A stretch of DNA of 64,000 bases from positions 62,001-126,000 of the forward strand of contig NZ_JABAHI010000006.1 in the NCBI RefSeq assembly GCF_012584445.1, read 5' to 3'. Below the pieces are notes generated by a model, which saw nothing but the letters and a program-made list of their open reading frames with translations, was not told the DNA's origin and did no database searches. Position 1 is the stretch's first letter. Each line of letters opens with the position of its first letter. The stretch is from Olsenella sp. KGMB02461 (GTDB taxonomy: Bacteria > Actinomycetota > Coriobacteriia > Coriobacteriales > Atopobiaceae). Positions 43,872-52,716 of this stretch are shown in pieces. The position numbers were made by a program, and so were the translations under genes.

Positions 43872-44167
43872 AAATAACCTCAAAAGCAGAAAAATCGGCA
43901 TTCTATGCATGAGGGCGCATCTTTAAAGAAAGCTTTGCGTCCTGCTGCACAATCATAGCTATTTGATAAACGCTTTGTAACGGATGGCCCAATGGCCCTT
44001 AATGGCAGATGAAAGGTGGCACTATAGGCTCCACGCACTGGCCCCACGCCTAAAGTTTGATGGATGAGCCCACGAATGGCCAGCCATCGCCCTTTGGGAT
44101 AGGACTGCATTGGTTCTGGCCGCAGTGCGTGCGCTTTTGGCGAAGACCTACCACACAAGGAGTCCTC

Positions 44168-45034
44168 ATGAAAAAGAACGCGTTCATCAAGGTGTTTGGC
44201 TGCCTTATGGCCTGCACCCTGGCGGTAGTGCTGGCGGCCTGCGGCTCTGCCAACAACCAGTCGGCCAACCAGTCCTCCTCCACAGGCGGCGACAGCGCTC
44301 AGGCGTCCACCGACGCCGCAGCGACCGACGACTACACCCTGGTGCAGGACGGCAAGCTCACCATGATCTCCAACTTCTACTTCCCGCCCTTCGTGTCCAT
44401 GAACAGCAACGGCGGCGACTTCGAAGGCTTTGACGTGGACGTCTACAAGGCCGTCTGCGACAAGCTGGGGCTCGAGCCCAACATCTTGCCCTCGGTGCAG
44501 TTCGACACCATCGTGCCCACCATCAAGCAGGGCGGCAAGGCAGACGTCTCCATCGGCGCCATCACCATCACCGACGAGCGCCAGCAGGAGGTGGACATGA
44601 CCGACCCCTACATGGACTCCAACCAGGCCATCGTGGTGAAGAAGGACGCCACCGCCACCGACATCGACACCCTCAATGTCTCCGGCATGCAGATTGCCGT
44701 CCAGGCCGGCACCACCGGCGAGGCTTGGGCCAAGGAGAACCTGCCCAACGCCACCGTCGTGCCGCTGGACGACATCATCCAGTGCCTCACCGGCGTGCAG
44801 ACCGGCCTCTACAATGCCGTGGTCTGCGACCTGCCTGTAGCCGAGTACGAGATCAACGTGGCCTACTCCGACCTGCAGATCACCACCGAGATCCCCACCG
44901 GCGAGCAGTACGGCATCGTGGTCTCCAAGGACAACCCCGGCCTCGCCAAGGCCATCAACCAGGCCCTCCAGGAGCTGCAGGACGACGGCACCATGGACGA
45001 GCTTGAGCAGAAGTGGTTTGGCACCACCCTCTAA
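44168..45034 (+). CDS. Amino-acid-type solute-binding lipoprotein (family 3), no permease adjacent
   Basis: This 288-residue protein has a lipobox (LAAC) after a hydrophobic signal and a mature SBP_bac_3 domain: GKLTMISNFYFPPFV, EGFDVDVYKAVCDKLGL, ADVSIGAITITDERQQEVDMT. The family binds polar amino acids. ATG at 44168 follows AAGGAG at 5 nt. It is followed by a strong terminator and no permease or ATPase gene lies beside it, so it must use a transporter encoded elsewhere or act alone as a sensor. Confidence 0.9.
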   Translation: MKKNAFIKVFGCLMACTLAVVLAACGSANNQSANQSSSTGGDSAQASTDAAATDDYTLVQDGKLTMISNFYFPPFVSMNSNGGDFEGFDVDVYKAVCDKLGLEPNILPSVQFDTIVPTIKQGGKADVSIGAITITDERQQEVDMTDPYMDSNQAIVVKKDATATDIDTLNVSGMQIAVQAGTTGEAWAKENLPNATVVPLDDIIQCLTGVQTGLYNAVVCDLPVAEYEINVAYSDLQITTEIPTGEQYGIVVSKDNPGLAKAINQALQELQDDGTMDELEQKWFGTTL

Positions 45035-49087: not shown

Positions 49088-50413
49088 ATGAGCGACTCCG
49101 GACCCTCTCCGCACCCAGGCGCACACCCTCGCAGGCGCCCTTCCGGCTCTCGAGCCCGCGGCTACACTTCCCGCTCCGGCGACCCCGGCGATCGCTACAG
49201 CTCGCGGCGAGCTCACGGCTCTTGGCGACTTTCTCCTGCCGAGAAACGCTCGGCTGCCGCCTCGACGCCTTCCTCTCGTCCCAACCCGGCTCCTGGCGCG
49301 GCCACCCGGGGCCGCTCGGGCTCTTCGCAGCGAGAGGCCTCCGCTCGCCATAGGGCCGAGCGCCAACAGCGCAAGGCCTCCCGGCAAAGGCCTCGTCGCA
49401 GCCGGCCTATGCCCCAACTCCCCTCTTGGTCGCGGAGGGCAGGGCGCGGGTTTCTCGGCAGGAAACCCGGGCGAGCCCCTCAAGGGTCTCTGAGCCAGCG
49501 CTTTGTGAGGGAGTGGCGCAGAAGCGCGCACTTCCGCAAGCTGGCGACCAGCGCCGCCGGGCTGCTGGCAGCGTTGGCGGTGGGCTTGGCTATCCTGGGC
49601 ATACAGCACCATGGGGCGAGGGTCGCCGAGCACACGCGCGCTCAGACCAATCTGGAGGCCCTGGGGACTTTCGAAAACGCGCTCGTAGAGAGCTACAGCT
49701 CCATCGCACCTTTGTATGTGCAGGTAGGCACAGATATTGAGGCTATCCAAGCCTCGGGCAGCCAATGCGGCTTTTATATTTGCACTGCCGATGGCCAAGA
49801 GCTGACGGCCTACAACGCCCAGCAGCCTTTTTATAGCGCGAGCTCCATCAAGGGGCCCTATGTGCTCTCGGTGCTCTCGGAGCTTGAAAGCCCAAGCCAG
49901 CTGGGCTCTTTGGAAGACAGCGTGACGCTGGCCATCACCGAGTCGGACAACAACAGCTACATCGCCGCCAAGAATGCCTTTGGCACCGCCACCATCAACC
50001 AGTGGCTCACCGAGGCAGGCTCCTCCGAGACCTTGGGTGACAACTGGGGCTCCTACGTGGATCTGAGCTGCGAGCAGCTGGCGGGCCTTTGGGTGGAGTC
50101 GGCGGCCTGGTGTCTGGGCGACAGCGCGTCCGAGGACCTTCACGACTACGGGGCCGCCATCTTCTCAGAGCCGCTCAACAGCCCCATCGCCCAGCTGCCC
50201 GATGCAGTCACCTGGTCGAAGCCCGGCTGGATCGCCACCGAGTCCCAGAACTCCACAGTGGACGCCGGCCTGGTGGTTCGCGGCGGCGACGCCTACATCA
50301 TGGCGGTGATGACCAACAAGGGCGACGACTTTGACACCCTCGACCCCCTGGTAGCCTCTCTGGACACCCTGGCCCAACAGCTCATCGAGGCACGTGCTTC
50401 TCGGCTGGCCTAG
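49088..50413 (+). CDS. Membrane-anchored beta-lactamase-like serine hydrolase
   Basis: This 441-residue protein has a long Ser/Arg/Pro-rich cytoplasmic region (about 1-150), one membrane segment (LATSAAGLLAALAVGLAILGI, about 154-174) and an outer catalytic domain. The domain carries SSIK (SxxK) in YSASSIKGPYV, TESDNNS with an SDN-like motif, and KPGW, close to the class A beta-lactamase/serine hydrolase triad SxxK, SDN, KTG. It may act on peptidoglycan; beta-lactamase activity itself is not evident. The start ATG is 5 nt after the UPF0210 stop and lacks a clear ribosome site, so it is likely coupled. Confidence 0.85.
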   Translation: MSDSGPSPHPGAHPRRRPSGSRARGYTSRSGDPGDRYSSRRAHGSWRLSPAEKRSAAASTPSSRPNPAPGAATRGRSGSSQREASARHRAERQQRKASRQRPRRSRPMPQLPSWSRRAGRGFLGRKPGRAPQGSLSQRFVREWRRSAHFRKLATSAAGLLAALAVGLAILGIQHHGARVAEHTRAQTNLEALGTFENALVESYSSIAPLYVQVGTDIEAIQASGSQCGFYICTADGQELTAYNAQQPFYSASSIKGPYVLSVLSELESPSQLGSLEDSVTLAITESDNNSYIAAKNAFGTATINQWLTEAGSSETLGDNWGSYVDLSCEQLAGLWVESAAWCLGDSASEDLHDYGAAIFSEPLNSPIAQLPDAVTWSKPGWIATESQNSTVDAGLVVRGGDAYIMAVMTNKGDDFDTLDPLVASLDTLAQQLIEARASRLA

Positions 50414-50422
50414 CGGCAAGCA

Positions 50423-50561
50423 TCAACGATCCTTAGGGCCCTCGTGCTCATGGCCCTCGTGTTCGGGCTGCGCGCGGCGCCCAGGTTCGTGGCCCTCATG
50501 GCCATGCTGGCCATGCTCGCAGTAGCCGCCCTCATGGTCGCAGCGGGAATGGTCGTGCTGG
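50423..50561 (-). other. Out-of-frame His-rich tail of the CobW gene
   Basis: In the -1 frame relative to the CobW ORF, immediately 3' of the G7 run, the minus strand reads a 46-residue His-rich stretch (10 His, 2 Cys; segments QHDHSRCDHEGG and HGHEGHEP) ending at a stop at 50423, 9 nt from the serine hydrolase stop. Removing one G from the run joins it to the CobW frame. Such tails bind zinc, nickel or cobalt in the CobW/G3E family. Confidence 0.7.
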
Positions 50562-51542
50562 CCCCCCCGTCTCCTGACGGCGCTCCTCGGCATGCCACTT
50601 GAGGGGCAAGAAAGCCTCGCGCAAGAAATTGCGCTCCAAACCCTTGCCGATAAACACTGCCTTGGCTTCCTCGGCGTCGAGCTCTTCTCCCAGCTCCTCC
50701 GCACCGGTGACGGCCCAGCGGCGGGCCACCACGTCAAAGCGCAGCAGGCCGTCTGAGGTGCGCACGAAGCCCTTGGCACGCGCCACCTTGCCAAAGACCC
50801 CTGCCACCAGGGCATCCAGAAGCCACGCCAGATGAGCTGCAGTAGGCACAGAGGCATGGCCCAGGGCGAAGGTCTCAAGTCCGGGATCCTCGTCGGGTGA
50901 GGGCGCCGGCTCAGCGGCTGCCTGCTCAGGGTTGAGGTCGCGATGGAGCAACGACTCAAACCACTCATCGGGAATCTCTGAGAGCGGGACTGCCTTGATA
51001 TCGACGCCGGGCTTGGCGTCGCAGATGGACCCCACCAGATCGTCTAGGCCTTCGTCAACACCCTCTGCCTGGGCCTCATCCCGAGTGGGCACCTTGGAGA
51101 CCACCACGGTGGGAGCGGTTTCCAGCTGGTCGTTGAAGATCTCTGGGTAGGCCTCTTTCTCAGATTGCCAAGACTCCCAATCCACAATGCACACGGGCTC
51201 AAGAAGGCCGATGCGCTCGTAGGTGACCTTGTCCACGTTGTCGAGCACCGCAGAAAGCTTGGCGACGCCCGTAGGCTCGACCACCAGGTACTCAGGGTCC
51301 AAGGTGTTGGCGATGGTGAGCACGCTGGTGGCGAAATCCTGTTTGCCGGTGCAGCAAATGCAACGATCGAGCGATTCCCAGACCTCAAGACCAGTGCCTT
51401 CTTTGAGCACCTGGCTATCGATATCGGTCTGGCCGTATTCGTTCTCATAGATCACAAAGTCGCGGCGGGTGCGCCGCGCCAGCTCCTGGATAAAGGTGGT
51501 CTTGCCTGCTCCCAGAAAGCCTGAGATCACGAGTACCTTCAT
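50532..51542 (-). CDS. CobW/G3E-family GTP-dependent metallochaperone, C-terminus probably frameshifted
   Basis: This 336-residue ORF as read has Walker A GFLGAGKTT, the metal motif CICCTGK (CxCC), EPTG and a C-terminal CobW domain with SDGLLRFDVVA. The family delivers zinc, cobalt or nickel to target proteins. The ORF ends shortly after a G7 run (C7 on the plus strand at 50562-50568) with a non-conserved tail (ARPFPLRP). The missing His-rich tail is encoded one frame over (see 50423-50561). This could be programmed slippage, a phase-variable tract or a sequencing error. The start ATG lies 15 nt from a T-rich terminator of the upstream ADH gene. Confidence 0.85.
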   Translation of the reverse strand: MKVLVISGFLGAGKTTFIQELARRTRRDFVIYENEYGQTDIDSQVLKEGTGLEVWESLDRCICCTGKQDFATSVLTIANTLDPEYLVVEPTGVAKLSAVLDNVDKVTYERIGLLEPVCIVDWESWQSEKEAYPEIFNDQLETAPTVVVSKVPTRDEAQAEGVDEGLDDLVGSICDAKPGVDIKAVPLSEIPDEWFESLLHRDLNPEQAAAEPAPSPDEDPGLETFALGHASVPTAAHLAWLLDALVAGVFGKVARAKGFVRTSDGLLRFDVVARRWAVTGAEELGEELDAEEAKAVFIGKGLERNFLREAFLPLKWHAEERRQETGGPARPFPLRP

Positions 51543-51556
51543 GGTGCCTCCCCTAG

Positions 51557-51591
51557 AAAAAAGGGCGGCGCCACAGTCTGTGACACCGCCC
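51557..51591 (-). terminator. Terminator after the alcohol dehydrogenase
   Basis: A 13-bp stem (51563-51575 with 51579-51591; two positions are G-U wobbles on the minus-strand RNA) is followed by six U residues (A6 at 51557-51562 on the plus strand). It ends ADH transcripts before the CobW gene. Confidence 0.85.
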
Positions 51592-51651
51592 GCATTGCTG
51601 CAAATAGCGAGAGGCTGGCGCGCCCTCAGAGCGCATCAACCTTTATAAGAC

Positions 51652-52716
51652 CTAGTCTTCCTCGATGACCACGACGGGCTTGATGAGGTCAGCAGGCTTG
51701 TCGCGCATCAGGAAGAGGGCCTCCTCCAGGTGGTCCCAGCCATGGAAGACATGGGACAGGAGGGGCTTCAAGTCCAGACGGCCGCAGGTGACCAGGCTGG
51801 CAAGCTTCTCCATGCGCAGACGGCCACCGGGCATCAGGCCGCCATTGATCTCCTTATGCCCCATGCCAACGCCCCACTCGACACGAGGGATGTCGATGTA
51901 GTCGCCGGAGCCAAGATAATTTACATTGCCGATCTTGCCGCCGGGCTTCACCGCGATGACAGCCTCCTTGAAGGTATCCACGTCGCCGCCGGCGATGAGG
52001 ACCTTGTCGACGCCCTTGCCATCGGTCATAGCCAGCACCTGCTCGCCGATGGGGCCGTTCTTGTAGGAGATGAAGTCGGTGGCGCCATAGCCGCGAGCAG
52101 CCTCGATGCAGTTGGGACGGGTGCCCACGGCGATGATGCGGGAGGCGCCGCGGAGGGCGGCGCCGGCCACGGCCATGAGGCCCACGGGGCCGATGCCGAT
52201 GACCAGGCAGGTGTCGCCAAACTGGACGTCAGCCAGCTCGGAGGCATGGAAGCCGGTGGGGACCATGTCGGACAGCATGCAGGCCTCAGCCACACCCATG
52301 CCCTCGGGCATGAGAGCCAGGTTGCCGTCAGCGTCGTTCACGTGGATGAGCTCTGCGAAGACGCCGTCCTTGAAGTTGGAGAACTTCCAGCCAGCCAGCA
52401 TGCCGCCGGAGTGCATGGAGTAGCCGGCCTGGGCCTCCAGGGAGTTCCAATCAGGGGTGATGGCGGGAAGAAGCACGCGATCGCCGGGCTTGAAGTCGTG
52501 CACGCACTCGCCCACCTCGACGACCTCGGCGCAACCCTCATGACCTAGGATCATGTTGTGACGCTCGCCGATGGCGCCCTCCCAGAGGGTATGCACATCG
52601 GAGGTGCAGATGGCTACCGCCAGGGGCTTGACGATGGCGTCGTTGGGGCCGCAGACGGGGGCATCTTTCTCGATCCACCCCGACTCGCCGATCTTGAGCA
52701 TTGCATAACCCTTCAT
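51652..52716 (-). CDS. NADP-dependent secondary alcohol dehydrogenase
   Basis: This 354-residue zinc alcohol dehydrogenase matches the thermophilic/clostridial secondary ADH family. Zinc ligands are Cys37, His59 and Asp150; the neighbouring Glu60 is present too. Residues Gly198-Thr199-Arg200 correspond to the NADP-binding GSR motif, with Thr for Ser and Arg200 kept for the 2'-phosphate. The Rossmann motif is GIGPVGLMAVAG. It would interconvert secondary alcohols and ketones such as 2-propanol and acetone. Monocistronic, with a terminator behind and a 13-bp palindrome at 52754-52766 upstream. Confidence 0.92.
   Translation of the reverse strand: MKGYAMLKIGESGWIEKDAPVCGPNDAIVKPLAVAICTSDVHTLWEGAIGERHNMILGHEGCAEVVEVGECVHDFKPGDRVLLPAITPDWNSLEAQAGYSMHSGGMLAGWKFSNFKDGVFAELIHVNDADGNLALMPEGMGVAEACMLSDMVPTGFHASELADVQFGDTCLVIGIGPVGLMAVAGAALRGASRIIAVGTRPNCIEAARGYGATDFISYKNGPIGEQVLAMTDGKGVDKVLIAGGDVDTFKEAVIAVKPGGKIGNVNYLGSGDYIDIPRVEWGVGMGHKEINGGLMPGGRLRMEKLASLVTCGRLDLKPLLSHVFHGWDHLEEALFLMRDKPADLIKPVVVIEED

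Follow-up and report, generated by a model that had tools for sequence, protein, structure and literature searches.

The GTPase gene considered here lies on the minus strand of the window (the whole 64,000-nt stretch of DNA that was analysed), where the open reading frame 51542-50532 encodes, as assembled, a short form of a COG0523/CobW-family P-loop GTPase of 336 amino acids, assigned from Pfam matches and motifs. Its upstream partner is a gene for an NADP-type zinc secondary alcohol dehydrogenase (52716-51652, minus strand) recognised by phmmer, and between the two stands a terminator-like hairpin of 13 pairs followed by T6 (51563-51591, minus strand), which the sister species keeps. A convergent gene on the plus strand encodes a serine hydrolase with a Beta-lactamase2 domain (49109-50413, its start being approximate).

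The assembled GTPase frame meets a run of seven G residues (G7; 50568-50562, minus strand) and stops nine codons on, giving a protein that ends GG-PARPFPLRP; this end with its stop (50561-50532, minus strand), made by the frameshift, is unlike the end of any homologue examined, and the outcome that the preliminary description had named as refuting its view, homologues sharing this end, did not arise. With one G fewer the frame is open to 50423, ending GG-QHDHSRCDHEGGYCEHGQHGHEGHEPGRRAQPEHEGHEHEGPKDR and adding 46 residues with 10 His and 2 Cys (50561-50423, minus strand), 9 nt from the hydrolase stop at 50413; the preliminary description had reported the run, both frames, the composition of the tail and this spacing, and its counts were confirmed. 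By chance, 45% of random 46-codon stretches in the window are open, and 0.2% (270 of 127,718 window positions) are open and hold at least 10 His. Composition alone gives modest support for the His tail, and the decisive support is homology. G7 runs are strongly avoided in the window, with 2 seen against 24.6 ± 6.4 expected from shuffles.

Family membership of the GTPase is indicated by a match to Pfam cobW (PF02492, E 1.7e-27, cut-off passed) with the Walker A motif GFLGAGKTT in the translation, by a CobW_C match (PF07683, E 2.5e-7, residues 241-311), and by the CxCC metal motif, present as CICC within LDRCICCTG. The assembled frame is without the His-rich stretch, an optional feature of the family, whereas the +1 frame, the protein of the sister species and most orthologues have it. 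Such stretches are not obligatory; some 40% of COG0523 proteins have one, often close to the C terminus (Haas 2009, PMC2770081). Since the NCBIfam scores fall well under the cut-offs for the CobW equivalog (62.8 bits against 332) and the ZigA equivalog (50.8 bits against 600), "CobW" should be read here as "COG0523 family"; the score for PRK11537 is also far below its cut-off, and the nearest solved structure by sequence is YjiA (1nij, E 1.6e-9).

The tail in the sister species and other orthologues

The one other genome of the genus compared, that of the sister species (G028, a single contig; locus L003), encodes a protein 96% identical to that of the window, whose frame runs through the tail to 372 amino acids and stops at the equivalent position. 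Across the junction the sister reads GAAGAGGAGCGCC and the window GAGACGGGGGGGCC, the window being one base longer and the G run missing in the sister. The orthologue set also took in 29 more genomes of Coriobacteriia and a metagenome-assembled genome (MAG) from the Oscillospiraceae. Tail-less exceptions are L027 and L119, both divergent copies from Coriobacteriia, and L036 from the Oscillospiraceae MAG; a further exception is the copy of an Atopobiaceae MAG (L014), which is interrupted by an internal TAG following 257 codons (L014 and L034). In all other orthologues compared, 5-33 His residues follow the core in the same frame. Given that the sister species, with a tail of equal length, and nearly all orthologues are tailed in frame, the long form is the ancestral and normal one. 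The preliminary reading of the His tail as part of an intact gene extending to about 50423 is thus supported.

None of the orthologues compared has a run of G or C of at least six within the gene. Because the run is absent elsewhere, the G run and its extra base are private either to the lineage of the window or to the assembly. Further copies of the gene of this species were found neither in viral contigs nor in plasmids, the latter yielding one Fusobacterium record of 32% identity with neither a tail nor an adjoining matching dehydrogenase.

The ratio of nonsynonymous to synonymous change (dN/dS) in the tail is about 0.41 in the long frame, compared with 0.95 and 0.81 when the tail is read in the alternative frames and 0.10 in the gene body, and control pairs with intact tails give 0.09 to 0.60. 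The tail is as lightly constrained as these intact controls, indicating a shift that is of recent date, reversible or not real. Decay of the tail was considered as proof of an old frameshift and rejected, as 0.41 lies within the control range and is uninformative on this point. The near-normal ratio means little decay after the shift, which is as compatible with an error as with a switch. The tail of the window has lost five His and that of the sister one, which is suggestive only as a sign of decay.

Origin of the extra base

Starting from what is observed directly, that is the two frames, the in-frame tails of homologues, a run found nowhere else among them and the pairing of genes described below, we favour with moderate confidence the view that an ancestral tailed COG0523 metal-chaperone GTPase has had its tail cut off here by an extra G. 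The normal form would have about 372 residues, and its His- and Cys-rich C-terminal tail would bind and buffer divalent metal ions, probably of zinc, destined for the zinc secondary alcohol dehydrogenase whose gene lies immediately upstream. Point changes may have formed the G run where the tail begins, with one G more than the tail frame allows; translation would then exit that frame and stop nine codons past the run, and the product would keep the nucleotide-binding domain, the CxCC motif and CobW_C with the tail gone. Such a tail-less GTPase would presumably still work, with less metal storage. Altogether the locus has the appearance of an ordinary frameshift of recent date, or of a sequencing error, and not of a proven genetic switch.

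We consider it likely that the indel is real, as against an assembly error, and infer that it is recent. Alignment of the window and 50 kb beyond to the sister covered about 70 kb of synteny, in which gaps that are not a multiple of three are mostly intergenic; those inside other open reading frames, as far as they were checked, fall in short unverified frames, near the ends of frames, or in compensating groups. The frame 44057-45034 (plus strand) shows two single-base differences from the sister near its start, which may precede the true start. Over the window and the 50 kb beyond, the G7 run is the sole such gap that could be assigned to a gene with a reading frame established by homology. 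Another gene has a C8 run close to its end, and there the alignment with the sister is ungapped. The assembly is 99.91% complete in 13 contigs. An assembly that is generally noisy at homopolymers is made less credible by the few other coding frameshifts in the synteny and by the unshifted C8 run, which speak against general noise and do not by themselves clear the G7 site.

An assembly or base-calling error at this one site, by which the true run would be one base shorter and the gene intact, is considered unlikely, though far from negligible. It would account for a tail that is still open, keeps most of its His and is constrained like intact tails, and for the intact state of the sister and nearly all relatives; the site is a homopolymer, and the species is represented by one assembly. 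Set against it are the same scarcity of candidate coding frameshifts elsewhere, the ungapped C8 run and the completeness of the genome.

Reversible phase variation, in which slippage at the G run would toggle tailed and tail-less GTPase in the population and so tune metal buffering, is improbable in our estimation. Neither MutS_V nor NucS was matched in the genome by a search that gives matches in control genomes, and slippage should accordingly often escape repair. The genome has about 25 G tracts of 7-11, mostly intergenic, with tracts of 9-11 among them, and one orthologous intergenic tract measures 9 in this genome (G000 C10:136167-136175, L076) and 7 in the sister (G028 C1:579787-579793, L038). 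A 7-nt poly-G in glpK of M. tuberculosis is known to be phase-variable (PMC11898584). Nevertheless, the run is lacking in the sister and in all orthologues, by which a conserved contingency tract was rejected and the run is not a maintained one; its length of seven is at the short end, and one allele is known, from one genome. The switch is unproven and, taken as a conserved device, disfavoured. A bolder form of the idea holds that a Coriobacteriia lineage with no detectable MutS or NucS toggles the chaperone tail by a new G run, cells differing in zinc storage while the GTPase is kept, and that the gene pair represents a subgroup dedicated to the dehydrogenase; we regard this as quite improbable and put it forward as speculation.

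As a separate observation on such tracts, each of the two genomes of the genus has more than 20 poly-G tracts of 7-12, the long ones mostly intergenic, which are possible slippage hot spots (for example G000 C10:25246-25256, C12:460862-460872 and C12:1128686-1128695, and sister G028 C1:142576-142587). Four poly-G loci (L075, L088, L089, L042) share similar sequence stretches and perhaps belong to a repeat element.

Programmed +1 ribosomal frameshifting, or transcriptional slippage, yielding both forms from one gene is highly improbable: GGG GGG C could allow re-pairing of tRNA-Gly one base further, CCA, which comes next in the zero frame, is the least used of the Pro codons here (9%) and AGGAG lies just upstream, but the slip site is conserved in neither the sister nor the orthologues, there is no stop codon behind the site that would promote a shift, the long form needs +1 (or -2) instead of the usual -1, and the downstream fold (z -0.17) is no better than shuffles, although a stimulatory structure is not always required at +1 sites. 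A search of the locus for structured RNA gave no Rfam match. The preliminary description had offered phase variation or programmed frameshifting alongside an assembly error, and as a programmed or conserved switch the suggestion found no support, for want of a G run in the sister, of G or C runs of six or more in the orthologues and of a stimulatory RNA structure.

The frameshift matters mainly for annotation, for it places the true end of the gene and makes the tail its normal state.

The dehydrogenase partner and comparison with known systems

The upstream gene matches 3fpc over residues 1-351 (phmmer E 5.5e-157) and also 1bxz and 1kev, and the CTSD and GHE motifs of the zinc-ligand region are kept in the alignment to solved members. 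In 32 of 32 genomes examined (Atopobiaceae, other Coriobacteriia families and one Oscillospiraceae MAG) the dehydrogenase gene precedes the GTPase gene in the same orientation (window 50532-52716, L003-L036, L115-L119), the intergenic gap being mostly 71-215 nt and about 700-955 nt in three loci. Within the Atopobiaceae the dehydrogenase is present in 26 of the 26 genomes with the GTPase and in 28 genomes overall, G001 and G017 carrying it without an adjoining GTPase gene; the hypergeometric probability of this co-occurrence is 3e-26, a value that overstates independence since the genomes are related. Hairpins similar to that at 51563-51591 were found in 14 of the 32 dehydrogenase-GTPase gaps scanned, and the terminator-like hairpin may point to much enzyme and little chaperone.

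Such constant pairing suggests a dedicated zinc-insertion partner, and the simplest reading is that the GTPase would help to supply the dehydrogenase with its zinc while the tail would hold metal in reserve. It is the gene context alone that points to zinc and to the dehydrogenase as client; storage would agree with the His stretches of HypB (PMC7055735) and of COG0523 proteins (PMC2770081), which have been proposed as metal stores. In C. glutamicum a COG0523 gene and a neighbouring oxidoreductase gene are under common Zur control (PMC2823685). The literature search returned no paper joining "secondary alcohol dehydrogenase" with CobW and zinc, and no description of a COG0523 subgroup dedicated to zinc secondary alcohol dehydrogenase was found in the literature searched. 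The conserved pairing across Coriobacteriia offers, in the dehydrogenase, a concrete candidate client for a family with few known clients and, should the pairing be functional and the truncation real, the locus would be a natural experiment on the contribution of the His tail.

With the COG0523/CobW-family G3E GTPases described previously (PMC2770081) the protein has in common the P-loop GTPase domain, CxCC and CobW_C. Their His-rich C terminus is likewise seen in the sister and most orthologues, whereas the assembled gene of the window is without it, and the link to a secondary alcohol dehydrogenase is absent from that paper (0 occurrences of "alcohol dehydrogenase"). The zinc-linked proteins YjiA, YeiR and ZigA belong to the same family, in which the window GTPase appears, by its profile scores, to belong to a subgroup separate from the ZigA, PRK11537 and CobW equivalogs. 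His tails proposed as a metal store or buffer are found also in the nickel GTPases HypB and UreG (PMC7055735), which differ in belonging to other G3E branches and in handling nickel, the His stretch of HypB being N-terminal. The likeness to glpK lies in a coding 7-nt G run with a frameshifting indel; both glpK alleles, however, are found across many isolates (PMC11898584), whereas the window gene is known from one assembly and its relatives lack the tract. Finally, the upstream gene matches over its full length the zinc NADP-dependent secondary alcohol dehydrogenases 3fpc, 1ykf and 1kev and, unlike these known members, is paired in Coriobacteriia with a COG0523 gene.
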